A program made the translations under genes and the position numbers. Source: Phaeospirillum sp. (GTDB lineage: Bacteria > Pseudomonadota > Alphaproteobacteria > Rhodospirillales > Magnetospirillaceae). Taken from it: 35,379 bases of DNA. Positions 3,818-27,399 of this stretch are shown piece by piece (within the stretch, counting starts at the first letter, position 1; each line of letters opens with the position of its first letter). The notes beneath the pieces are model-generated. The model was not told the origin of the DNA. It made no database searches and saw only the letters and a list, made by a program, of their open reading frames with translations. The stretch spans positions 1 to 35,379 of the forward strand of contig JAVBXM010000015.1 of assembly GCA_030824585.1 (NCBI GenBank). Direction: 5' to 3'.

Positions 3818-5557
3818 ATGATCATCGTTCATTTCGAAGTCTACGTCATGGAAGGCCGGGGGTGGATGCTGCACGCACGCTTCCCGCGGCTGGAGCGTGA
3901 CGAGGCTGTCCGCGAGGCCAAGGAACTGGAAAGCACCCTTGGCGTGCGCACCAAGGTGCTGCGCGAAACCTACAACACCGACACCAATGTGTTCGACGAG
4001 GTAGAGGTCTACCTGTCCGGCCACAACATCCAGCCCAAAAAAAGCGCCGCGGTCGGCCAGGGCGGTGGTGGCGGTGGCGGCAGGGGAGGCGGCAAGGAGC
4101 GCGACACCGCCAGGGGAGGCGGCAGCGCCAAGACGGCCGCCGCCAAGCGGGCGGCCCGGGCGCGGGCCAGCGGCCCCAGCATGGGCGCCGGCGCGGCCAT
4201 CTTGCGCCTGACGATCATCTTGCTGGTGGCGTCGGGCCTGGGCCTGGGGGCGCTGCGCATGGTGCCGTCGGCCATCGTCTTCCTCTATGATTACGGCTAC
4301 CGCATCACCCCCGACGAGTACGGGCAGGTGCTGGTCGTCGTCTTCGGCCTGGTCTTCCTGATGACCGCCGTGCCGCTGGGCCTGCGCTTCATGCCGCGCA
4401 ACGCCAACATCCAGTTCAACCGCGCCGCCCCGGCCGCGCCGCCGCCCCGGCCCCAGCCGTCCGAGGCGGTAAAGAAGTCCCTGAACAAGCTGGCCAAGAA
4501 GGCCGAGGCGGAGATGATCCCCGAAACCTGGGGCGACGAGCCCGAGCCGGAGCCGGAACCCGCGCCGCCGCCGGCCGAGGAGGAGCCCCCGCCGCTGTCC
4601 GGCCCGGCCGAGGAACCCTCGCCCGACGCCGCCGCCGTGGATTCTCTGCCGACCACTCCGGTCCTCGAGGCCACCACGAAGGTCACCGACCGTTTCGTGG
4701 ACAAATCCATGGAGATCGTCCGTCAGGTGGCGCCAAGCACCGACAAGTACACCACCTTCGGCCTCAACCTGTTCATGGCGGGCGCCGTCCAGGCCATCGC
4801 CCGCAGCCGGAAGCTGGATTCAAGCGGACAGCGCAAACTGCTGAAATCCATCATCGAGAAGCTGGGCACCCCCGGCGACCTCGCCGCCGTCTTCTACGAC
4901 AAGGTGCCGGAATACATGTCCGAGCAGCGCTATGCCCGCATGTTCGAATCCGGCAAGTCGGCCATGGAATCATGGTCGGAGGGCGACGAAGGCACGCCGA
5001 TGATCAAGCTCCAGACCTCGCTCAAGGACTGGAACAAGCCGGCCACGGAGAAGAAGCCGTCCCTGATGACGGTGATGTTCACCGACATGGTGGGCTCCAC
5101 CGACCTGACCCAGGCGCGCGGCGATCAGGCCGCCCAGGAGATCGTGCGCAAGCACAACGCCATCGTGCGCACCGCGCTGACCCAGTTCGCCGGGCGCGAG
5201 GTCAAGCATACCGGCGACGGCATCATGGCGTCCTTCGCCTCGGCCGCCAACGCGGTGGAGGCCACCGTCCAGATCCAGCGTCAGGTCACCGCCCACAACG
5301 AGAAGCAGCCCAACCTTCCCCTGCATCTGCGCATCGGGCTCAATGCCGGCGAACCCATCCAGGAAGAGGACGACCTGTTCGGCTCCACGGTCCAGTTGGC
5401 CGCCCGCGTCTGCGCCGCCACCGAGTCCGACCAGACGCTCTGCACCCAGGTGGTCAAGGACCTCGCCGCCGGCAAGGGAACCTTCACCGACGGCGGCATG
5501 CACGCCCTGAAGGGCTTCCGCGACAAGTTCCAGCTCTGGGAAGTGATCTGGCGCTAG
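3818..5557 (+). CDS. Membrane-bound class III adenylate/guanylate cyclase
   Basis: This predicted 579-aa membrane cyclase would make a cyclic nucleotide. The N-terminal ~65 residues form a small alpha/beta module I do not recognise. A Gly/Lys/Ala-rich linker, two transmembrane helices (about 125-150 and 170-190) and a Pro/Glu-rich linker follow. The C-terminal catalytic domain (about 410-579) has the metal aspartates in FTDMVGST (D423) and HTGDG (D467), Lys463 at the adenine-selecting position, and the transition-state Arg530. The usual Asn of the N-x-x-A-A-R motif is Gln (Q526). The start at 3818 is preferred because GGGCGG lies just upstream; an in-frame ATG at 3791 would add 9 residues and has no ribosome binding site. 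cAMP is the more likely product, but this is inference. Confidence 0.85.
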   Translation: MIIVHFEVYVMEGRGWMLHARFPRLERDEAVREAKELESTLGVRTKVLRETYNTDTNVFDEVEVYLSGHNIQPKKSAAVGQGGGGGGGRGGGKERDTARGGGSAKTAAAKRAARARASGPSMGAGAAILRLTIILLVASGLGLGALRMVPSAIVFLYDYGYRITPDEYGQVLVVVFGLVFLMTAVPLGLRFMPRNANIQFNRAAPAAPPPRPQPSEAVKKSLNKLAKKAEAEMIPETWGDEPEPEPEPAPPPAEEEPPPLSGPAEEPSPDAAAVDSLPTTPVLEATTKVTDRFVDKSMEIVRQVAPSTDKYTTFGLNLFMAGAVQAIARSRKLDSSGQRKLLKSIIEKLGTPGDLAAVFYDKVPEYMSEQRYARMFESGKSAMESWSEGDEGTPMIKLQTSLKDWNKPATEKKPSLMTVMFTDMVGSTDLTQARGDQAAQEIVRKHNAIVRTALTQFAGREVKHTGDGIMASFASAANAVEATVQIQRQVTAHNEKQPNLPLHLRIGLNAGEPIQEEDDLFGSTVQLAARVCAATESDQTLCTQVVKDLAAGKGTFTDGGMHALKGFRDKFQLWEVIWR

Positions 5558-5626
5558 AATCCGCCTGAGTTTGGTGGAATCGACGCCTCTCTTCGTCACC
5601 CTCGGGCTTGGCCCCAGAGTCCATGG

Positions 5627-5649
5627 ATGGCCGGGTCAAGCCCGGCCAT
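5627..5649. repeat. Short inverted repeat downstream of the cyclase gene
   Basis: A 9-bp perfect stem (5627-5635, ATGGCCGGG, with 5641-5649, CCCGGCCAT) has a TCAAG loop. It lies in the gap between the convergent cyclase and rcdA genes. It resembles short extragenic palindromes common in alphaproteobacteria and may work as a bidirectional terminator. Confidence 0.5.
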
Positions 5650-5680
5650 GACCAGTGAAAGGGAGCGCTTCCGCCGAAGA

Positions 5681-6082
5681 TCAGTGCAGCACCCGCTGGA
5701 CCAGCATCTCCTCCAGCCGCGCCACCCGGACGTAAAGGCGGTAGGAGCGGTCCATCAGGCTGCGCAGGTGATTGGGCAGGGTCTCGTCGCCGCTGAAGCT
5801 CTCGTCCAGGCAGACGTCGGCCCCCGACAGCCGGCATTCGTCGCGGAGCGCCTCCTCGGCCTCCACCTCGCCCTCGTGCACGGCCCGCTGGAGCATCAGC
5901 CAGGCCATCACCTGGGTCAGGCGCGAGGTGACCCGCATGGCCTCGCAACTCATGCGCAGGCCGATCATCCCCCCCACCCTCTCGCGCTCGCGGCGCTCGG
6001 CAAAAGCCAGATAATTGCGGGCCTCGACCATCAAGGTCATGGTCTCGTCGTAGGTCCTGCGAAAAAAAGCGGGCTGGGGCAT
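5681..6082 (-). CDS. rcdA: RcdA/DUF1465 family ClpXP adaptor-like protein
   Basis: In Caulobacter, RcdA is an adaptor that works with CpdR to deliver substrates such as CtrA to the ClpXP protease. The 133-aa product fits this helical family. It has an N-terminal FFRRTYDETMTLMVEARNYL helix (about 6-25), then MRVTSRLTQVMAWLMLQRAVHEGE in the middle, and LPNHLRSLMDRSYRLYVRVARLEEM at the C-terminus. It ends soon after the last helix, so the disordered tail seen in Caulobacter RcdA is short or missing. The ATG at 6082 is chosen for its GGAGAAAA ribosome binding site; the frame is open upstream to 6184 with low-complexity sequence. The family call rests on remembered similarity. The role in this organism is inferred. 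Confidence 0.75.
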   Translation of the reverse strand: MPQPAFFRRTYDETMTLMVEARNYLAFAERRERERVGGMIGLRMSCEAMRVTSRLTQVMAWLMLQRAVHEGEVEAEEALRDECRLSGADVCLDESFSGDETLPNHLRSLMDRSYRLYVRVARLEEMLVQRVLH

Positions 6083-21360: not shown

Positions 21361-21840
21361 ATGCAGAAATCATTGCTCATTCAACCGGTCAAGTGCACCG
21401 GCTGCCGCCAGTGCGAGATGGCCTGCTCGTTCGAGAAGGAGCGCAGCTTCAACCCGTCCAGGTCGCGCATCCGCGTCTTCGACATCCATTCCGAGGCTCG
21501 CTTCGTTCCCTACACCTGTACCCAGTGCGCCCAGGCCTGGTGCCTGCAGGCCTGCCCGGTGGACGCCATCAAGATCGATGCGGCCACCAAGGCCAAGGTG
21601 GTCAACGATAACCTCTGCGTGGGCTGCAAGGTCTGCACCATCGCCTGTCCCTTCGGCACCATCAACTACGTCGCCGACAGCGGCAAGGTGGCCAAGTGCG
21701 ACCTGTGCGGCGGCGATCCGGCCTGCGCCAAGGCCTGTCCCACCGGGGCGATCACCTACGTGGACGCCGAGCAGACCGGCTACGACAAGATGCGCGCCTG
21801 GGCGGTGAAGACCGACACCCAGTCGCATACCCACGCTTGA
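21361..21840 (+). CDS. aorA: Polyferredoxin subunit of tungsten aldehyde oxidoreductase
   Basis: This 159-aa electron-transfer protein has sixteen cysteines arranged for four [4Fe-4S] clusters: CTGCRQCEMAC (C12-C22), CTQC with C-x3-CP further on, CVGCKVCTIACP, and CDLCGGDPACAKACP. It resembles the DmsB/HycB group and AorA of Aromatoleum aromaticum, whose naming is followed here. There is no signal peptide, so it acts in the cytoplasm. It would carry electrons between the tungsten subunit and the FAD subunit. The ATG at 21361 has GGAGGGGAG just upstream. It is the first gene of the aor cluster, and the catalytic subunit gene starts 16 bases after its stop. Confidence 0.9.
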   Translation: MQKSLLIQPVKCTGCRQCEMACSFEKERSFNPSRSRIRVFDIHSEARFVPYTCTQCAQAWCLQACPVDAIKIDAATKAKVVNDNLCVGCKVCTIACPFGTINYVADSGKVAKCDLCGGDPACAKACPTGAITYVDAEQTGYDKMRAWAVKTDTQSHTHA

Positions 21841-21856
21841 TTGAGAGGGCCTGGTC

Positions 21857-23707
21857 ATGAGCTGGACTGGCAAGTTTCTCCGCATCGATCTCACCAAGGG
21901 CACCGTCGGGACCGAGGAGCTGAACCGCGAATGGGCGCGGCAGTACCTGGGGCAGCGGGGCCTGGCCACCAAATACTTCGCCGAGGAAGTCGACCCCAAG
22001 GTCGATCCCCTGTCGCCGGCCAACAAGATGATCTTCACCACCGGGCCGCTGACCGGCACCGCCGCATCGACCGGCGGGCGCTATTCGGTGGTGACCAAGG
22101 GGCCGCTGACCGGCTGCATCGCCTGCTCCAATTCCGGCGGCTTCTTCGGCAACGAGCTGAAGAACGCCGGCTGGGACATGATCATCGTCGAGGGCAAGTC
22201 GCCCAGGCCCGTCTACCTCTCCGTCGAGAACGAGACCGTGGAGATCAGGGACGCCGCCGAGTTCTGGGGCAAGACGGTGTGGGAGACCGAGAACGGCCTG
22301 AAGGCCAGGCACCAGGACCCCATGCTGCGCGTCGCCTCCATCGGCGCCGCCGGCGAGAAGGGCGCGCTCTACGCCTGCATCGTCAACGACATGCACCGCG
22401 CCGCCGGGCGCTCGGGCGTCGGCGCGGTGATGGGCTCCAAGAATCTCAAGGCCATCGCGGTGCGCGGCACCAGGGGCGTGACGGTCAAGGACCCCGACCG
22501 CTTCATCAAGGCCACCATCGAGCAGAAGAAGGTGCTGGCCGACAACGCCGTCACCGGCCAGGGCCTGCCCAAATACGGCACCCAGGTGCTGATGAACGTC
22601 ATCAACGAGATCGGCGCCTTGCCCACGCGGAATTTCCGCGACGTGCAGTTCGAAGGCGCCCACAAGATCTCGGCCGAGGCCATGCACGAGCCGCGCGTCA
22701 CCGACGGCAAGGCCAATCTGGCCACCAACGGAGCCTGTTTCGGCTGCACCATCGCCTGCGGCCGCATCTCGCGCATGGATGCCGGCCACTTCTCCATCGC
22801 CACCCGGCCCCAGTACAAGGAGCCGTCGGGCGGCGTGGAATACGAGGCGGCCTGGGCGGTGGGCGCCGATTGCGGCGTCGACGACCTGGAGGCCTGCACC
22901 TTCGCCAACTTCATGTGCAACGAGCACGGCTTCGATCCCATCTCCTTCGGCTCGACCCTGGCGGCGGCCATGGAGATGTACGAGATGGGTGTCCTGACCA
23001 GGGAACACACCGGCGGCATCGAACTGAAGTTCGGCTCGGCCGAGGCCCTGGTGAAAATGGCCGAACTGACCGGCAAGGGCGAGGGGTTCGGCGTGGAACT
23101 GGGCCTGGGTTCGCGGCGGCTATGCGCCAAGTACGGCCACCCCGAGCTGTCCATGACGGTCAAGAGCCAGGAATTCCCCGCCTATGACCCGCGCGGCATC
23201 CAGGGCATGGGGCTGACCTACGCCACCTCCAACCGTGGCGCCTGTCACCTGCGTTCCTACACCGTGGCGTCGGAAGTGCTGGGCATCCCCTTCAAGAGCG
23301 ATCCCCTGGCCACCGAGGGCAAGGCGGCCCTGGTCAAGGCGTTCCAGGACGCCACGGCGGCCTTCGACGCCTCGGGTATCTGCATCTTCACCACCTTCGC
23401 CTGGAGCCTGGAGAACCTGGCGCCCCAACTGGATGCCGCCTGCGAGGGCGAATGGACGCCCGACGTCCTCCTCGAGGTGGGCGAGCGCATCTGGACCCTG
23501 GAGCGCCAGTTCAATCTGGCGGCCGGCATGACGGCGGCGGACGACACCTTACCCAAGCGCCTCTTGAAGGACGCCGCCAAGACCGGCCCGGCCAAGGGGC
23601 TGGCCTCGGGCCTGGACAAGATGCTGCCCGAATACTACCAGTTGCGCGGCTGGACGCCCGACGGCGTGCCGACCGCCGATACCTTGAAGCGCCTGCATCT
23701 GGCCTGA
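21857..23707 (+). CDS. aorB: Tungsten-dependent aldehyde:ferredoxin oxidoreductase, catalytic subunit
   Basis: The enzyme interconverts aldehydes and carboxylic acids on a bis-pyranopterin tungsten cofactor with a nearby [4Fe-4S] cluster. The 616-aa product begins with the family sequence MSWTGKFLRIDLTKG. It has the cofactor-binding segments GPLTGTAASTGGRYSVVTKGPLTG, SGGFFGNELKNAGWDMI and GRSGVGAVMGSKNLKAIAVRG. Cluster cysteines are C294, C297, C301 (CFGCTIAC) and C509 (GIC), a layout like that of the Pyrococcus enzyme. Length is normal. The ATG at 21857 has GAGAGGG upstream. Together with the polyferredoxin and FAD subunits it matches the Aromatoleum-type AOR, which can reduce NAD and also acids. 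The physiological aldehyde is unknown. Confidence 0.94.
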   Translation: MSWTGKFLRIDLTKGTVGTEELNREWARQYLGQRGLATKYFAEEVDPKVDPLSPANKMIFTTGPLTGTAASTGGRYSVVTKGPLTGCIACSNSGGFFGNELKNAGWDMIIVEGKSPRPVYLSVENETVEIRDAAEFWGKTVWETENGLKARHQDPMLRVASIGAAGEKGALYACIVNDMHRAAGRSGVGAVMGSKNLKAIAVRGTRGVTVKDPDRFIKATIEQKKVLADNAVTGQGLPKYGTQVLMNVINEIGALPTRNFRDVQFEGAHKISAEAMHEPRVTDGKANLATNGACFGCTIACGRISRMDAGHFSIATRPQYKEPSGGVEYEAAWAVGADCGVDDLEACTFANFMCNEHGFDPISFGSTLAAAMEMYEMGVLTREHTGGIELKFGSAEALVKMAELTGKGEGFGVELGLGSRRLCAKYGHPELSMTVKSQEFPAYDPRGIQGMGLTYATSNRGACHLRSYTVASEVLGIPFKSDPLATEGKAALVKAFQDATAAFDASGICIFTTFAWSLENLAPQLDAACEGEWTPDVLLEVGERIWTLERQFNLAAGMTAADDTLPKRLLKDAAKTGPAKGLASGLDKMLPEYYQLRGWTPDGVPTADTLKRLHLA

Positions 23708-23712
23708 AGCTC

Positions 23713-23743
23713 AGGGGGGCGACCTTGAGGCGCGCCCCCCTTT
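23713..23743 (+). terminator. Intra-operon hairpin between aorB and the first FAD subunit gene
   Basis: An 8-bp GC stem GGGGGGCG/CGCCCCCC (23714-23721 with 23733-23740), extended by an A-T pair, is followed by TTT. It lies 6 bp after the aorB stop. It could attenuate read-through or protect the upstream mRNA, which would leave less of the FAD subunit relative to aorAB. Confidence 0.55.
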
Positions 23744-23763
23744 CGGTCGAGAGGAATGAACTG

Positions 23764-25032
23764 GTGCATCACGTCATCGTCGGAGCCGGCCCCGCGGGGG
23801 TGACGGCCGCCGAAACCATCCGCGAGCTGGAGCCCGAGGCCGCCATCACCCTGGTGGGCGACGAGCCTGAGGCCCCCTATTCCCGCATGGCCATTCCCTA
23901 TCTGCTGATCGGCAAGATCGGCGAGGAGGGCACCTGGCTGCGCAAGGGCCCCAACCACTATGAACGGCTGGGCATCACCCTGATGCCGGGCAGGCGCATG
24001 ACCGGCCTGGACCCTGTCGCCCGGCGCATCGGCCTGGAGGGCGGCGAGACCCTGGCCTATGACCGCCTGCTGTTGGCCCTGGGCGCAAGGCCGCTGCGCC
24101 CGGCCATCGAGGGGCTGGACCTGCCGGGCGTCCACACCTGCTGGACCCTGGCCGACGCGCGCCAGATCGCGGCAGGGGCGGTACCCGGCTCCCACGTGGT
24201 GCTGATGGGCGCCGGCTTCGTCGGCACCATCGTGCTGGAGGCCCTGGCGCTGCGTCAGGTCAGCCTGACCGTGGTGGAGATGGGCGACCGCATGGTGCCG
24301 CGCATGATGGACGAGGTGGCGGGCGGCATGCTCAAGCGCTGGTGCGAGGCCAAGGGCGTCAAGGTCCTGACCGGTACCAGCATCCGCCGCATCGCCAAGG
24401 CCCTGGTCCCGGCCGCCGAGGCCCGCGATTCCCTGGTGGTGGAACTGTCCGACGGCTCCATCCTGCCCGCCCACGTGGTGGTGGTGTCGGCGGGCGTGCG
24501 CTCCAACACGGAGTCCGTGGCTGCCTCGGGCATCGGGCTCGGCAACGGCATCCTTGTCGACGACCACATGCGCACCAGCCTACCCGACGTCTATGCGGCG
24601 GGCGACGTGGCCCAGGGCCGCGACTTCATGAGCGGCGAGGCCCATGTGCACGCCATTCAGATCACGGCCGCCGCCCATGGCCGCATCGCCGCCTACAACA
24701 TGACCGGCCGGGACCAGGCCTATCACGGGTCGCTCAACATGAATGTGCTGGACACGTTGGGACTGATCACCTGTTCGTTCGGTTCCTGGCAGGGCAATGG
24801 CGGCGATTGCGCCCGGCTGGTGGACCAGACGGGCTTCCGCTATCTCCGCCTGGAATTCGACGGCACCGGCGACGTGGTGATCGGTGCCCAGGCGGTGGGC
24901 ACCACCGACCATGTGGGGGCGCTGCGCGGCCTGATCCAATCCAAGCGCCGCCTGGGCACGGCGGTAAAGGAGCAGTTGATGGCCGATCCGACCCGCTTCA
25001 TGGCCGGATTCGTCCAGACCCTGCATCGTTGA
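23764..25032 (+). CDS. aorC: FAD/NAD(P)-dependent oxidoreductase, AorC-type subunit
   Basis: This 422-aa flavoprotein of the pyridine nucleotide-disulfide reductase fold has an N-terminal FAD-binding GAGPAG (about 7-12). A second dinucleotide motif GAGFVG lies near residues 151-156, and the FAD-closing YAAGDVAQG near 279-287. A C-terminal domain of about 110 residues follows. It likely passes electrons between NAD(P)H and the polyferredoxin. The GTG at 23764 is chosen because AGGA lies 8 nt upstream; an ATG at 23756 nearby is out of frame. It follows aorB by 56 bp, with a hairpin between them. The protein downstream is a clear paralogue, so which of the two is the main AOR partner is open. 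Confidence 0.87.
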   Translation: MHHVIVGAGPAGVTAAETIRELEPEAAITLVGDEPEAPYSRMAIPYLLIGKIGEEGTWLRKGPNHYERLGITLMPGRRMTGLDPVARRIGLEGGETLAYDRLLLALGARPLRPAIEGLDLPGVHTCWTLADARQIAAGAVPGSHVVLMGAGFVGTIVLEALALRQVSLTVVEMGDRMVPRMMDEVAGGMLKRWCEAKGVKVLTGTSIRRIAKALVPAAEARDSLVVELSDGSILPAHVVVVSAGVRSNTESVAASGIGLGNGILVDDHMRTSLPDVYAAGDVAQGRDFMSGEAHVHAIQITAAAHGRIAAYNMTGRDQAYHGSLNMNVLDTLGLITCSFGSWQGNGGDCARLVDQTGFRYLRLEFDGTGDVVIGAQAVGTTDHVGALRGLIQSKRRLGTAVKEQLMADPTRFMAGFVQTLHR

Positions 25033-25044
25033 GTGTCTTCGTTT

Positions 25045-25133
25045 CCTGTCATTCCGGGGCAAAGCCGAGGAATCTCCGCCTGATCCGGCATTCCCAAACC
25101 GGAAGCCCTCGCCCGAGGGCTCAGGATGACAGG
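25045..25133. repeat. Palindromic dispersed repeat inside the aor cluster
   Basis: The 122-bp gap between the two flavoprotein genes holds an imperfect palindrome with outer arms CCTGTCAT (25045-25052) and ATGACAGG (25126-25133). An inner hairpin GCCCTCG/CGAGGGC is also visible (about 25105-25120). The arm type matches the element at 43-150. It looks like an inserted dispersed repeat and could separate expression of the two genes. Confidence 0.5.
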
Positions 25134-25154
25134 CCAGATAGAGGGGGAAGCGCC

Positions 25155-26405
25155 ATGGCTCGTCGCTACGTCGTCGTCGGAGGCGGTCCGGCCGGAGTGG
25201 TCGCCGCCGAAACCCTGCGCCGCCAGGACGCGACCGGCTCGGTCACCCTGGTGTGCGGCGAACCGGGGCCGCCCTATGCCCGCATGGCCATCCCCTACGC
25301 CATGTCCGGCAAGATCGACGAGGCCGGCACCTGGCTGCGCAAGGAGTGGGACCATTACGAGGCCCTGGGCATTCAACTGCTGCACGACCGGGTGGCCAAG
25401 GTCGATCCCGACGCCCGGCGGGTAGTCCTGGCCGGTGGGGGGGAGCTGCCCTATGACGCGCTGCTGATCGCCACCGGTTCGTCGCCGGCCCGGCCGCGCA
25501 TTCCCGGCCTGGATTTGCCCGGCGTACAATCCTGCTGGACGCTCGAGGACCTGCGCCGCATCGATCCGATGCTCCGCCCCGGACGGCGGGTACTGTTGCT
25601 GGGCGCCGGCTTCGTGTCGTGCATCATCTTGCAGTCCCTGGTCCAGCGCGGCGCCAAGGTGACGGTGAGCTGCGGCTCGTCGGGCCGCATGGTGCGTTCC
25701 ATGATGGACGAGACCGCCGGCGGCATGATCATGCGCTGGTGCCGCGCCAAGGGCGTCGAGGTCCTGACCGCCGGGCGGCCCACCGCCATCGAACGGCGGG
25801 AAGCCGGCCTGCGGGTGACGCTGGATTCCGGCCAGAGCGCCGAGGCCGATCTGGTGATCGTCGGCACCGGGGTCAGGACCAATACCGCCTTCCTCCAGGG
25901 CTCCGGCATCGCCGTCGAGGACGGCATCGTGGTCGACCGGTACCTGCGGACCAGCGTGGACTCCATCTGGGCGGCGGGCGACGTGGCCCAGGGCTTCAAC
26001 TGCTGCACCGGCCTCCGGGAGGTCCATGCCATCCAGCCCACCGCCGTGGAGCACGGCCGCGTCGCGGCGCTGAACATGAGCGGCACGCCCACCGAGTTCG
26101 GCGGCTCGCTGTCCATGAACACACTGGAGACCCTGGGCCTGATCTCCTGCTCGTTCGGCCAGTGGATGGGCAGGCAAGGCGGCGAGCAGGTGCGCGTGGT
26201 CGACCAGGAACACTTCCGCTATCTTCGCCTGGAATTCTTCGACGGCCGCCTGGTGGGAGCCAACACGGTGGGCATGACCAACGAGATCGGCATCATTCGC
26301 GGCCTGATCCAGACCAGGGTGCGGCTGGGCGGGTGGCTGGACCGCCTGAAGCGCGACCCGTCACGGCTGGCCGAGGCCTATGTGGCCTGTGCGCAGGGGG
26401 TCTAG
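25155..26405 (+). CDS. Second FAD/NAD(P)-dependent oxidoreductase of the aor cluster
   Basis: This 416-aa flavoprotein is homologous along its length to the preceding one; MAIPY, GTWLRK, LDLPGV.SCWTL, GVRTNT and AAGDVAQG are shared. The FAD motif is intact (GGGPAG, about 8-13). The second dinucleotide motif reads GAGFVS where the paralogue has GAGFVG, so nucleotide binding may differ. The ATG at 25155 has GAGGGGGAAG upstream. The stop is followed after 3 bases by the MoaD-like gene, so those two are tightly linked. It may replace or pair with the first flavoprotein in the AOR complex, or accept a different electron donor. Similarity to other NAD(P)H-dependent ferredoxin or nitrite reductase-type flavoproteins is general. 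Confidence 0.88.
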   Translation: MARRYVVVGGGPAGVVAAETLRRQDATGSVTLVCGEPGPPYARMAIPYAMSGKIDEAGTWLRKEWDHYEALGIQLLHDRVAKVDPDARRVVLAGGGELPYDALLIATGSSPARPRIPGLDLPGVQSCWTLEDLRRIDPMLRPGRRVLLLGAGFVSCIILQSLVQRGAKVTVSCGSSGRMVRSMMDETAGGMIMRWCRAKGVEVLTAGRPTAIERREAGLRVTLDSGQSAEADLVIVGTGVRTNTAFLQGSGIAVEDGIVVDRYLRTSVDSIWAAGDVAQGFNCCTGLREVHAIQPTAVEHGRVAALNMSGTPTEFGGSLSMNTLETLGLISCSFGQWMGRQGGEQVRVVDQEHFRYLRLEFFDGRLVGANTVGMTNEIGIIRGLIQTRVRLGGWLDRLKRDPSRLAEAYVACAQGV

Positions 26406-26408
26406 GCC

Positions 26409-26663
26409 TTGGCCAAGGTGACGCTCAAGCTGTTCGCGCTGCTGGGACGCCACCTCCCCCCCGGCTCGGTGGCCAACGCCACCGAGGTGGAGATTCCCGA
26501 CGGCTCCGACATCGGCGCCCTGATCGCCCGCTTCGCCCTGTCGGAAAAGGACTGCCATCTGGTGCTGCTCAACGGCGCTTTCGTGCCGCCCGATTCCCGC
26601 ACCTCCACCCGCCTCTCCCCCGGCGACACGGTCAGCATCTGGCCGCCCATTGGTGGGGGGTAA
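26409..26663 (+). CDS. MoaD/ThiS-like sulfur carrier protein
   Basis: This is an 84-aa ubiquitin-fold protein of the MoaD/ThiS family. It starts KVTLKLFALLGRHLPP, has DIGALIARFAL and LVLLNGAFVPPDS in the middle, and ends PGDTVSIWPPIGGG. The terminal glycines are what the family needs for adenylation and thiocarboxylate formation. It ends one Gly after the usual GG. In the aor cluster it may supply dithiolene sulfur for the tungsten cofactor. It starts with TTG at 26409, 3 bases after the preceding stop, with GGGGG about 9 nt upstream; a GTG at 26418 is an alternative. Its stop overlaps the start of a 32-aa ORF (TAATG). Confidence 0.85.
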   Translation: MAKVTLKLFALLGRHLPPGSVANATEVEIPDGSDIGALIARFALSEKDCHLVLLNGAFVPPDSRTSTRLSPGDTVSIWPPIGGG

Positions 26664-26761
26664 TGATGCGGGGGACGATGACGGACGGGGAAAACCCTTT
26701 CCAGCCGCCATTGAGGCGGCGGCCAAGCGGGCGGAGACCCGCGCCCGGCGAGGGACAATGA
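26663..26761 (+). CDS. Possible 32-aa translationally coupled peptide
   Basis: This short ORF starts inside the MoaD-like stop codon (TAATG) behind a GGTGGGGGG ribosome binding site. It ends with TGA overlapping the ATG of the next gene (ATGA). The product is mostly polar and Arg/Pro-rich (PFQPPLRRRPSGRRPAP) and matches nothing I know. The overlap on both sides suggests a translated coupling element, with or without a functional peptide. Chance is possible in such GC-rich DNA. Confidence 0.4.
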   Translation: MMRGTMTDGENPFQPPLRRRPSGRRPAPGEGQ

Positions 26762-27027
26762 CAAGGGAGCGCGTCACCTCCATGGGGCTGGACGAGTTCC
26801 GCCGCCACCTGCCGCTTGCCCTGCGCGGCCACGCCTATCGCTGGGCCGACGAGCGGAGTCTGGTGGTCGAAGGCGGCGTGGGCATCACGGTGGATGTACT
26901 GCCACCGCTGGTCCTGTCGGGCCTGCTGAGCCTGCCCCGCCTGCGCATCGCCTTTGCCTTCGCCGAGGGCGACGGCGCCGCCTTCCTGGCCGCCTGGGAC
27001 CGGGCGTTTCAGCGCGGCGGGGGTTGA
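26758..27027 (+). CDS. Small protein of unknown function at the end of the aor cluster
   Basis: This 89-aa protein has no family I recognise. It begins MTRERVTSMGLDEFRRHLPLAL. It continues with a beta-rich segment (HAYRWADERSLVVEGGVGITVDVLPP) and a hydrophobic LSGLLSLPRLRIAFAF, and ends WDRAFQRGGG. It has no signal peptide, membrane helix or cysteines. The ATG at 26758 overlaps the stop of the 32-aa ORF as ATGA; an internal ATG at 26782 is an alternative start. The C-terminal Gly-Gly-Gly is curious next to a MoaD-like gene. Position makes a role in AOR maturation or cofactor insertion likely, but this is inference. It converges with the second MoaD-like gene 9 bp away. Confidence 0.65.
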   Translation: MTRERVTSMGLDEFRRHLPLALRGHAYRWADERSLVVEGGVGITVDVLPPLVLSGLLSLPRLRIAFAFAEGDGAAFLAAWDRAFQRGGG

Positions 27028-27036
27028 CGGCCCCAA

Positions 27037-27399
27037 TCACACCACGGGCGCGCCAAAGCCCCAGGAATAGGGTACCGGCCCGGACAGCGCCACCTCGTCG
27101 CCGTCGTCCAGTTCCCGTTCCAGGTTGACCGGGGCGCCGAGCTGGCGGGTGACGTCCTTGCCGTTGACCAGCACCAGGAAAATCTTGTTCACCGGCACGC
27201 CGAACCTTGCCACCAGATCGCCGATCACCGTCCCGGCCGGGACCTCCAGGGATTGGGGTCCGCTGCCGCCGGCATAGGGGGACAGGCTGTTGAACATCTT
27301 CAGCCGGATGGCGATGGTCGGCGCCTCGCCCGAATTGTCGCCCATACCGCGATCTGAAATGCCCATTTCCCGGCGCGGATCGGTATTCGGATGATTCAT
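27037..27399 (-). CDS. MoaD/ThiS-like protein with a non-Gly-Gly tail
   Basis: This 120-aa protein has a ubiquitin-like core at about residues 28-108 (IAIRLKMFNSLSPY, VPAGTVIGDLVARFGV, KIFLVLVNGKDV, ELDDGDEVALSGPVPYS). It lacks the terminal Gly-Gly; the chain runs on to end WGFGAPVV. The N-terminal ~25 residues are polar and low in structure. It cannot form the usual thiocarboxylate unless the tail is trimmed. It lies convergent to the aor cluster and may serve the same cofactor or be a structural subunit. The ATG at 27399 has only a weak GGATAAAG site; ATG 27366 is a possible shorter start. The 171 bp upstream hold nothing I recognise. Confidence 0.8.
   Translation of the reverse strand: MNHPNTDPRREMGISDRGMGDNSGEAPTIAIRLKMFNSLSPYAGGSGPQSLEVPAGTVIGDLVARFGVPVNKIFLVLVNGKDVTRQLGAPVNLERELDDGDEVALSGPVPYSWGFGAPVV

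Follow-up and report, generated by a model that had tools for sequence, protein, structure and literature searches.

A tungsten aldehyde oxidoreductase cluster of Phaeospirillum sp. with tandem AorC-type flavoproteins, one of them carrying a proposed NADP(H)-type coenzyme site

Organization of the aor cluster

The window analysed here (the whole stretch of 35,379 nucleotides from Phaeospirillum sp.) contains an aor cluster, with all its genes on the + strand, formed by aorA, aorB, two tandem AorC-type flavoprotein genes (FAD1 and FAD2), a ThiS/MoaD-like gene and a small ORF (Table 1). Open reading frames, Pfam and NCBIfam scans and matches to the AOR structure 8c0z bear out what a preliminary description had read from the DNA, i.e., an Aromatoleum-type core of polyferredoxin, aldehyde oxidoreductase and FAD subunit, with two homologous flavoproteins back to back.

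Table 1. Features of the aor cluster, with positions in the window
Feature	Position	Strand	Description
aorA	21361..21840	+	159-aa polyferredoxin, four Cys clusters, C-terminal helix segment; Fer4 families (Pfam)
aorB	21857..23707	+	Tungsten aldehyde oxidoreductase large subunit, 616 aa; AFOR_N and AFOR_C (Pfam)
FAD1	23764..25032	+	Canonical AorC, putatively NAD-type; open frame, GTG start likely at 23764
FAD1 dinucleotide-binding segment GAGFVGTIVLEALALRQVSLTVVEMGDRMVPRMM	24208..24309	+	Aligned with further AorC sequences and with Lpd and Gor of E. coli
Interspersed repeat in the FAD1-FAD2 gap	25040..25140	+	Nine further partial copies in its own genome
FAD2	25155..26405	+	AorC paralogue, 416 aa, rebuilt dinucleotide site, proposed NADP(H) type
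FAD2 dinucleotide-binding segment GAGFVSCIILQSLVQRGAKVTVSCGSSGRMVRSMM	25602..25706	+	Ser at the third Gly, no Glu, Arg-Ser for Pro-Arg, one inserted residue
ThiS/MoaD-like gene	26409..26663	+	ThiS family PF02597, 40.2 bits
Small conserved ORF	26758..27027	+	3' of the ThiS gene

The subunits of a class III WOR (AorABC) can be recognized one by one. The best PDB match of aorB is 8c0z_A (977 bits across 615 residues), and its two AFOR domains are those of the large subunit, the assignment resting on domains and homology and the metal itself being predicted. The sequence of AorA holds 16 motif cysteines, that is, the four [4Fe-4S] motifs of the small subunit, and its best PDB match (8c0z_C, 237 bits) extends through the C-terminal helix segment, which the structure paper links to filament formation (PMC10413684). 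As for the FAD subunit with an NAD(P) domain adjoining aorB, both FAD1 and FAD2 correspond to it.

The ThiS/MoaD-like protein probably takes part in tungsten-cofactor assembly, in the manner of aorD/E, and a homologue is present in 65/80 named AOR loci. The small ORF, without a match in the Pfam and NCBIfam scans, has a homologue in 35 of the same 80 (the best 80 of 323 loci from the named-contig scan, a selection in which close relatives of the window's genome may be missing). The interspersed repeat lies outside the mechanism proposed below: its RNA fold is no better than that of shuffles (z -0.84), and no match in the window rose to the gathering score of an Rfam family.

Two members of the AorC family

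FAD1 and FAD2 share 50% identity across an alignment of 405 columns, and both find their best PDB match in the AorC of the A. aromaticum structure (8c0z_E), with 405.5 and 405.8 bits, respectively. The AlphaFold2 model of FAD2 (pLDDT 93.5, TM 0.95 against 8c0z_E) predicts an intact fold. Among NCBIfam models, PadH (NF045765) scores best for both (253.8 bits for FAD1 and 291.8 bits for FAD2), below its curated cut-off of 475, and proteins above that cut-off are encoded elsewhere in the genome. Could FAD2 serve another enzyme instead? The genome has a second AFOR gene (locus L034), with a TPP-enzyme gene, a FUSC-type exporter gene and an IclR regulator as neighbours and without an AorA or AorC match beside it, and it is an unlikely partner.

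The dinucleotide site of FAD2

The site of FAD1 is canonical, with GxGxxG, an acidic residue after beta-2 and an Arg, and keeps Gly153, Glu171 and Arg179 of AorC, the last of which is assigned to the NAD phosphates in the structure paper (PMC10413684). Conservation, from which AorC contacts were judged here, is nearly complete at these residues in canonical AorC (n=85, FAD1 included): Glu171 in 85/85, Arg179 in 84/85 and Gly153 in 81/85. The A. aromaticum AorC, whose enzyme is described as reducing NAD+ and not NADP+ (PMC6365974, PMC9295118), also has the canonical site. All three residues are missing in the FAD2 proteins of all eight genomes: the third Gly is replaced by Ser or Ala, the Glu is lost and 'PR' becomes 'RS'. 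The motif of every FAD2 reads GxGxxA/S instead of GxGxxG, and its beta-2 is not followed by an acidic residue. These counts leave out a wrong ORF (L139), a gene broken in its contig (L104), exact duplicates and twice-fetched loci (L037-L040); matches under 300 bits were dropped from site and conservation comparisons, and those under 150 to 250 bits from locus surveys.

A set of 80 canonical AorC sequences (FAD1 left out) gives 90 columns with a conservation of 95% or more, of which 15 fall in the dinucleotide segment. The eight FAD2 proteins jointly depart at five of the 90, four of them in that segment (Fisher p 0.0024), and two relatives from another family (f61) depart at seven, six of them there (p 5e-5); for FAD1 the figures are three and one (p 0.43). 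Because the departures of FAD2 and the f61 proteins concentrate in this segment, the coenzyme site looks changed and the rest of AorC looks kept.

Such a change might reflect loss of pyridine-nucleotide binding, with FAD2 passing electrons to ferredoxin, flavodoxin or a quinone-linked partner, or merely nucleating filaments. The absence of both the Glu and the phosphate-binding Arg179 and the residue inserted in the FAD2 loop speak for this alternative, which we nevertheless consider rather unlikely, since a loop released from its function would be expected to diverge, whereas the FAD2 loop is more conserved than the remaining protein and retains GxGxxS/A. Across the eight genomes, 31/37 segment positions (150-186) are invariant, versus 213/379 elsewhere in FAD2 (p 0.0006). 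Pairwise dN/dS is 0.13-0.44 for FAD2, higher on the whole than for aorB (0.09-0.19). A decaying FAD2 pseudogene was rejected on the basis of these dN/dS values and of the stronger constraint on the segment.

Comparison with glutathione reductase

In which direction has the site changed? The NADP to NAD switch of E. coli glutathione reductase (A179G, A183G, V197E, R198M, K199F, H200D and R204P; PMC5817062) offers a reference, and six of its positions (183 left out) were compared in a gapless alignment, the MAFFT alignment having shifted the glutathione-reductase loop. FAD1 agrees with E. coli lipoamide dehydrogenase, on the NAD side, at 5/6 positions, and FAD2 at 0/6. Position 204 is Arg in all eight FAD2 proteins (Arg181 of FAD2, the sole new positive charge at the site), position 179 is Ser and not Ala in 7/8, and positions 198/199 are not basic, the R198/K199 pair being replaced by small residues and a one-residue insertion. 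The f61 proteins have four glutathione-reductase letters (A179, V197, R198 and R204), with R198 and R204 together in both; this exact match to an NADPH-dependent enzyme is a further argument against loss of nucleotide binding.

Scans of ten isolated domains (4/85 canonical, 4/8 FAD2 and both f61) agree with this direction: the best glutathione-reductase model ranks below the lipoamide-dehydrogenase model, or is unlisted, in 4/4 canonical domains, and ranks above it, or the latter is unlisted, in 6/6 FAD2-type domains. The top-scoring models for the FAD2 domain are still those of NADH-dependent enzymes (PadH, AndAa, HcaD and NorW), because they are closer relatives overall. Single changes are not diagnostic, since 7/85 canonical sequences share one or two of the six glutathione-reductase letters and the third Gly is Ala in 12/165 Glu-bearing AorC. 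Taken from the sequences, the change in FAD2 appears to run from NAD to NADP.

A further reading is that FAD2 uses both coenzymes, or still NAD, and that the tandem provides gene dosage or regulatory redundancy with the same partners. NADPH use may be only partial when just the acidic residue is gone: in the NADH oxidase of S. mutans, removing it (D192A/N) is reported to bring some NADPH activity with NADH still preferred, and the 193R/194H variant to use both coenzymes (PMC3995211). The NADH enzymes at the top of the FAD2 family scores point the same way. We regard this reading as improbable, given several coordinated changes at one site in all eight genomes and in two further families, and given the three genomes of the order, described below, with one AorC of each type, each by its own aorB.

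Distribution and origin

The tandem order is found in 5/17 genomes of the genus, two of them single-contig (G039 and G044), and is therefore no assembly accident. The preliminary description would have been contradicted by a second flavoprotein that belonged to an unrelated family or was absent from the AOR clusters of close relatives. What was found is an AorC-family protein in all eight AOR-bearing genomes of the genus, five with tandem pairs and three with FAD2 as the sole AorC found beside aorB; it is instead the canonical FAD1 that is missing in 3/8, although one of these genomes (G045) is 79% complete and may hold FAD1 elsewhere. Beyond the genus, the FAD2-type site recurs in two other families (f262 and f61), reaching 14/179 of the AorC sequences collected. 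Six genomes of the order have two AorC genes at separate places, three holding one of each type, each beside its own aorB, and three holding two canonical ones. In three genomes of one of these two families, the AorC types are divided between two separate AOR loci, each type with its own AorAB. When the order, the class and the phylum were searched, scoring covered the top 4 or 5 candidates of each genome, and the class and the phylum were represented by samples.

FAD1 groups with the canonical AorC of two genomes of the same family (G008 and G033) and of locus L041 (SH-aLRT 97), and FAD2 is placed elsewhere. A recent tandem duplication of aorC in the genus is not favoured, and FAD1 plus FAD2 as one clade is not rejected by the AU test (p 0.217, and p 0.256 in a second test). 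A single clade of all 14 FAD2-type sequences is compatible with the data (p-AU 0.67, slightly better than the free quick search), as it was in an earlier 32-row test, and convergence is therefore not claimed. Since the f262 and f61 proteins may share a common origin with FAD2, they are not independent replicates of its site.

Proposed alternative caps for one enzyme

The explanation that we prefer, with a probability of roughly 0.64, is one Aromatoleum-type AorAB with alternative flavoprotein caps, FAD1 for NAD(H) and FAD2 most likely for NADP(H), coenzyme specificities that we infer from sequence. AorA and AorB would form one AOR with two interchangeable caps. From the tungsten centre, where the aldehyde is oxidized, electrons would flow through the iron-sulfur wire of AorA to the FAD of FAD1 and on to NAD+, or in reverse; FAD2, its FAD site kept, would dock at the same wire end, its remade pocket most likely accepting NADP(H). 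Because the solved filament has a single AorC at one end (PMC10413684), both proteins are expected to compete for that end, and with one cap per filament the FAD1:FAD2 ratio would set the yield of NADH versus NADPH from aldehyde (or H2) oxidation. The docking of FAD2 on AorAB, its use of NADP(H), the competition and the physiological purpose are all what we infer.

Regarding the architecture, the preliminary description had offered two possibilities. That of alternative AOR complexes with different electron partners agrees with an AorC framework that is shared and a pyridine-nucleotide site that seems to differ in the direction from NAD to NADP, with FAD2 as the sole AorC found beside aorB in three genomes of the genus, and with the separate AorAB for each type in the other family. 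That of one hetero-complex carrying out electron bifurcation or confurcation could appeal to two flavoproteins in one apparent operon, and we judge it very improbable: genes like WorA, WorB and WorC, with which class IV is defined and which the bifurcating enzymes described in PMC13328260 carry, were not found among the seven ORFs scanned in the cluster (21361-27399), the filament structure, as described, has AorC once, as an end cap, and three genomes have FAD2 alone beside aorB.

If FAD2 takes NADPH, a single enzyme could supply two different pools of reducing power in the cell, and the tandem pair would be a direct way into the interchangeability of caps and the partitioning of electrons between two pyridine-nucleotide pools. 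AOR of this type has been studied for the H2-driven reduction of acids and NAD+, the characterised enzyme being described as lacking NADP+ use (PMC9295118), and FAD2, if it does provide an NADP-type cap that fits this wire, would extend AOR to NADPH. A bolder, tentative extension, possible rather than probable, is a dual-currency tungsten enzyme whose AorAB nanowires, capped by an NAD-type or an NADP-type AorC, turn aldehydes or H2 into NADH or NADPH by cap swap; were both caps to join connected filaments, the wire would also be a transhydrogenase between the pools, and an 'AorC-P' subclass, seen up to now in three families, would have FAD2 as its founder.

Comparison with known systems

The closest counterpart is AorABC of Aromatoleum aromaticum EbN1 (class III WOR, 8c0z), which shares with this cluster the aorA-aorB-aorC order, the C-terminal helix segment of AorA, AorB, the NAD site of FAD1 and the MoaD-like genes that follow. 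It has one AorC, with no NADP+ activity reported, and the cluster described here adds FAD2 with its remade site. A link of AOR to NADPH is not new as such, since a viologen-accepting NADPH oxidoreductase has been reported with the AOR of Moorella thermoacetica (Strobl 1992, as cited in PMC6365974). Compared by description, that enzyme is coupled to NADPH by a partner oxidoreductase, like the proposed FAD2 system; its AorC shares only 34% identity with that of A. aromaticum, and the enzyme is reported to branch separately (PMC6365974). PadH, the NADH-linked subunit of phenylglyoxylate dehydrogenase, resembles both flavoproteins as their best, sub-threshold model. The bifurcating class IV WOR (WorLSABC) has the WorL/WorS-type core in common with this cluster, in which its WorABC module was not found. 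Finally, glutathione reductase, an NADPH enzyme, shares GxGxxA/S, the lack of the acidic residue and the Arg at 204 with FAD2; unlike it, FAD2 has no R198/K199 pair and carries a Ser-rich loop with one extra residue, and the likeness implies no redox disulphide role.

Composition of the aor cluster

As read from ORF, Pfam and NCBIfam scans, the aor cluster holds genes for AorA (159 aa) and AorB (616 aa), a pair of flavoproteins of the AorC type (FAD1 and FAD2), a member of the ThiS family and a small ORF whose product may be a maturation factor. AorA, AorB, FAD1 and FAD2 alike have the solved AOR of Aromatoleum aromaticum (8c0z) as best PDB match, with the AorA alignment extending through the C-terminal segment tied to filament formation in the structure paper (PMC10413684). 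FAD1 and FAD2 are 50% identical and equally near to the AorC of that structure (8c0z_E), which bears out the preliminary description of an aor core with two homologous flavoproteins back to back. In the other four genomes with the pair, the two genes are only 17-69 bp apart.

Coordinates of the aor cluster and of other features discussed in the text
Feature	Sequence	Position	Strand	Remarks
aor cluster	window	21361-27027	+
FAD1	window	23764-25032	+	AorC-type flavoprotein
Interspersed repeat	window	25040-25140		separates FAD1 from FAD2; nine further partial copies in own genome
FAD2	window	25155-26405	+	AorC-type flavoprotein
Small ORF	window	26758-27027	+	after thiS; no assigned family; homologues in 35/80 named AOR loci
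Convergent ORF	window	27037-27399	-	120 aa; no Pfam match
Second AFOR-family gene	L034 (G000:C78, own genome)	4070-6010		31% identical to aorB
Canonical AorC of G996	L186	6839-8086		thiS-like gene also at this locus

Homologues of the convergent ORF adjoin the AOR cluster in G039, G043, G044 and G045 and occur in 9 of the 80 named AOR loci, with the locus of G045 itself counted among the nine; this ORF lacks a C-terminal Gly-Gly.

The dinucleotide site of the second flavoprotein

In the numbering of the A. aromaticum AorC, canonical sequences (FAD1 counted among them) carry Glu171 in 85/85, Arg179 in 84/85 and Gly153 in 81/85 cases, and the alignment gives FAD1 this usual site (GAGFVG...VVEMGDRMVPRMM), whereas FAD2 reads GAGFVSCIILQSLVQRGAKVTVSCGSSGRMVRSMM and all three residues are lost in 8/8 FAD2. 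Arg41, Met42 and residue 294, which have been named for FAD binding and electron transfer (PMC10413684, where 294 is given as Gln in the legend of the figure but as Glu in the text), are retained throughout the 95 rows that were compared. An unbiased test by column agrees with this: all FAD2 depart together in 5 of 90 strongly conserved columns, 4 of which fall among the 15 conserved columns of the dinucleotide segment (p 0.0024). The predicted structure of FAD2 is confident (pLDDT 93.5) and finds 8c0z_E as its top match in the PDB (TM 0.95); its structural matches also include BphA4 variants changed at Glu175, presumably the equivalent of the acidic residue of AorC.

The rebuilt site is proposed to be of the NADP(H) type. 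The AOR of A. aromaticum is reported to reduce NAD+ and not NADP+ (PMC6365974, PMC9295118), and class III WORs in general are written with NAD(P)+ (PMC13328260). The reference is the classical NADP-to-NAD redesign of E. coli glutathione reductase (A179G, A183G, V197E, R198M, K199F, H200D, R204P; PMC5817062), of which six positions were compared, leaving out 183. FAD1 has the letter of E. coli lipoamide dehydrogenase at 5/6 of them and that of glutathione reductase at 0/6; FAD2 has the former at 0/6 and the latter at R204, position 179 being the glutathione reductase Ala in 1/8 and Ser in 7/8, and two relatives from family f61 have glutathione reductase letters at 4/6. However, 7/85 canonical AorC also share one or two of these letters, which counts against the NADP reading. 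That reading is in line with how ten isolated domains score against profiles, although NADH-linked relatives (e.g., PadH and HcaD) remain top-scoring for FAD2.

Distribution and history

Within the genus, aorB is present in 8/17 genomes and FAD2 in 8/8 of these. Five (the own genome, G039, G040, G043 and G044) have the tandem pair, with FAD1 between aorB and FAD2, and three (G041, G048 and G045, the last only 79% complete) have FAD2 alone beside aorB. In an rpoB tree of 16 genomes, from which G045 is absent for want of an rpoB match, all five genomes with the tandem fall into one clade (100/100) together with one that lacks AOR. Elsewhere in the family, 3/38 genomes (G008, G009, G033) have a match, in every case one canonical AorC that adjoins aorB.

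In a survey of AOR loci for one versus two AorC copies, the tandem was found in the five genus genomes. No intact pair occurs among the best 80 of 323 named AOR loci, 67 of these 80 having an AorC match. The one double match among them (L104) is a broken gene. Nine of the 13 loci with no match (L044, L048, L049, L050, L051, L055, L062, L084, L087) hold aorA and aorB without an adjoining AorC-like match, the other four being cut by contig ends.

Across the order, 85/317 genomes have AorC and 11 have two copies, 5 in tandem and 6 at separate places. Among the latter, three genomes of family f262 (G990, L184+L183; G991, L180+L181; G992, L185+L182) have one FAD2-type and one canonical locus, each beside aorB, and no thiS homologue was found in their fetched FAD2-type loci. 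In G838, G877 and G996 both copies are canonical; in G996, no aorA or aorB match lies within the 14 kb fetched around the L186 copy, and the other copy sits elsewhere in the genome at L187, an AOR locus that also contains aorA and aorB. G989, also of f262, has a single, FAD2-type AorC. Matches occur in 19/385 genomes of the class sample and 4/398 of the phylum sample, with two only in the own genome, and the Glu is kept in 165/179 AorC collected and lost in 14 (8 genus, 4 f262, 2 f61), counts from overlapping samples that are uneven as a census.

In a tree with AorC homologues, as the preliminary description had proposed, FAD1 clusters with the canonical AorC of G008, G033 and L041 (support 97), and FAD2 stands apart. 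Holding all 14 FAD2-type sequences as one clade is compatible with the data (p-AU 0.67), and this site may have arisen once or more than once; FAD1 may have been gained beside an older FAD2 or lost in the single-copy lineages. Selection on FAD2 is purifying (dN/dS 0.13-0.44; FAD1 0.09-0.27; aorB 0.09-0.19). The changed segment is the better conserved part of FAD2, with 31/37 positions invariant against 213/379 elsewhere in the protein.

Proposed function and comparison with known systems

The solved filament has one AorC with AorAB units stacked on it, the FAD of AorC lying opposite FS4 of the proximal AorA (PMC10413684), FS4 being a cluster of that subunit. Given one AorC per stack, two AorC variants would be alternative caps, the electron partner being presumably NAD(H) for FAD1-capped wires and NADP(H) for FAD2-capped ones. 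Bifurcation by a hetero-complex of both flavoproteins, the other architecture initially considered, finds no backing, as Pfam and NCBIfam scans of the cluster did not find the subunits it would need.

Around the second AFOR-family gene of the own genome lie genes for a TPP enzyme, a FUSC-type exporter and an IclR regulator. Two PadH-type flavoproteins of this genome exceed the NF045765 cut-off (G000:C10, L035; G000:C60, L036); a ferredoxin-like ORF lies close to each of them, so that they may belong to two 2-oxoacid oxidoreductase clusters.

A gene-neighbourhood paper of 2006 had already listed AOR together with MoaD and a pyridine-disulphide oxidoreductase, and the bacteria it gives include Magnetospirillum (PMC1779556). 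Among the literature matches listed, no second or NADP-type AorC was seen in titles or abstract openings. An NADPH-linked AOR is reportedly known from Moorella (work cited in PMC6365974), and therefore this kind of activity has been heard of before; what appears to be new is the presence of two coenzyme types in tandem on one AorAB.
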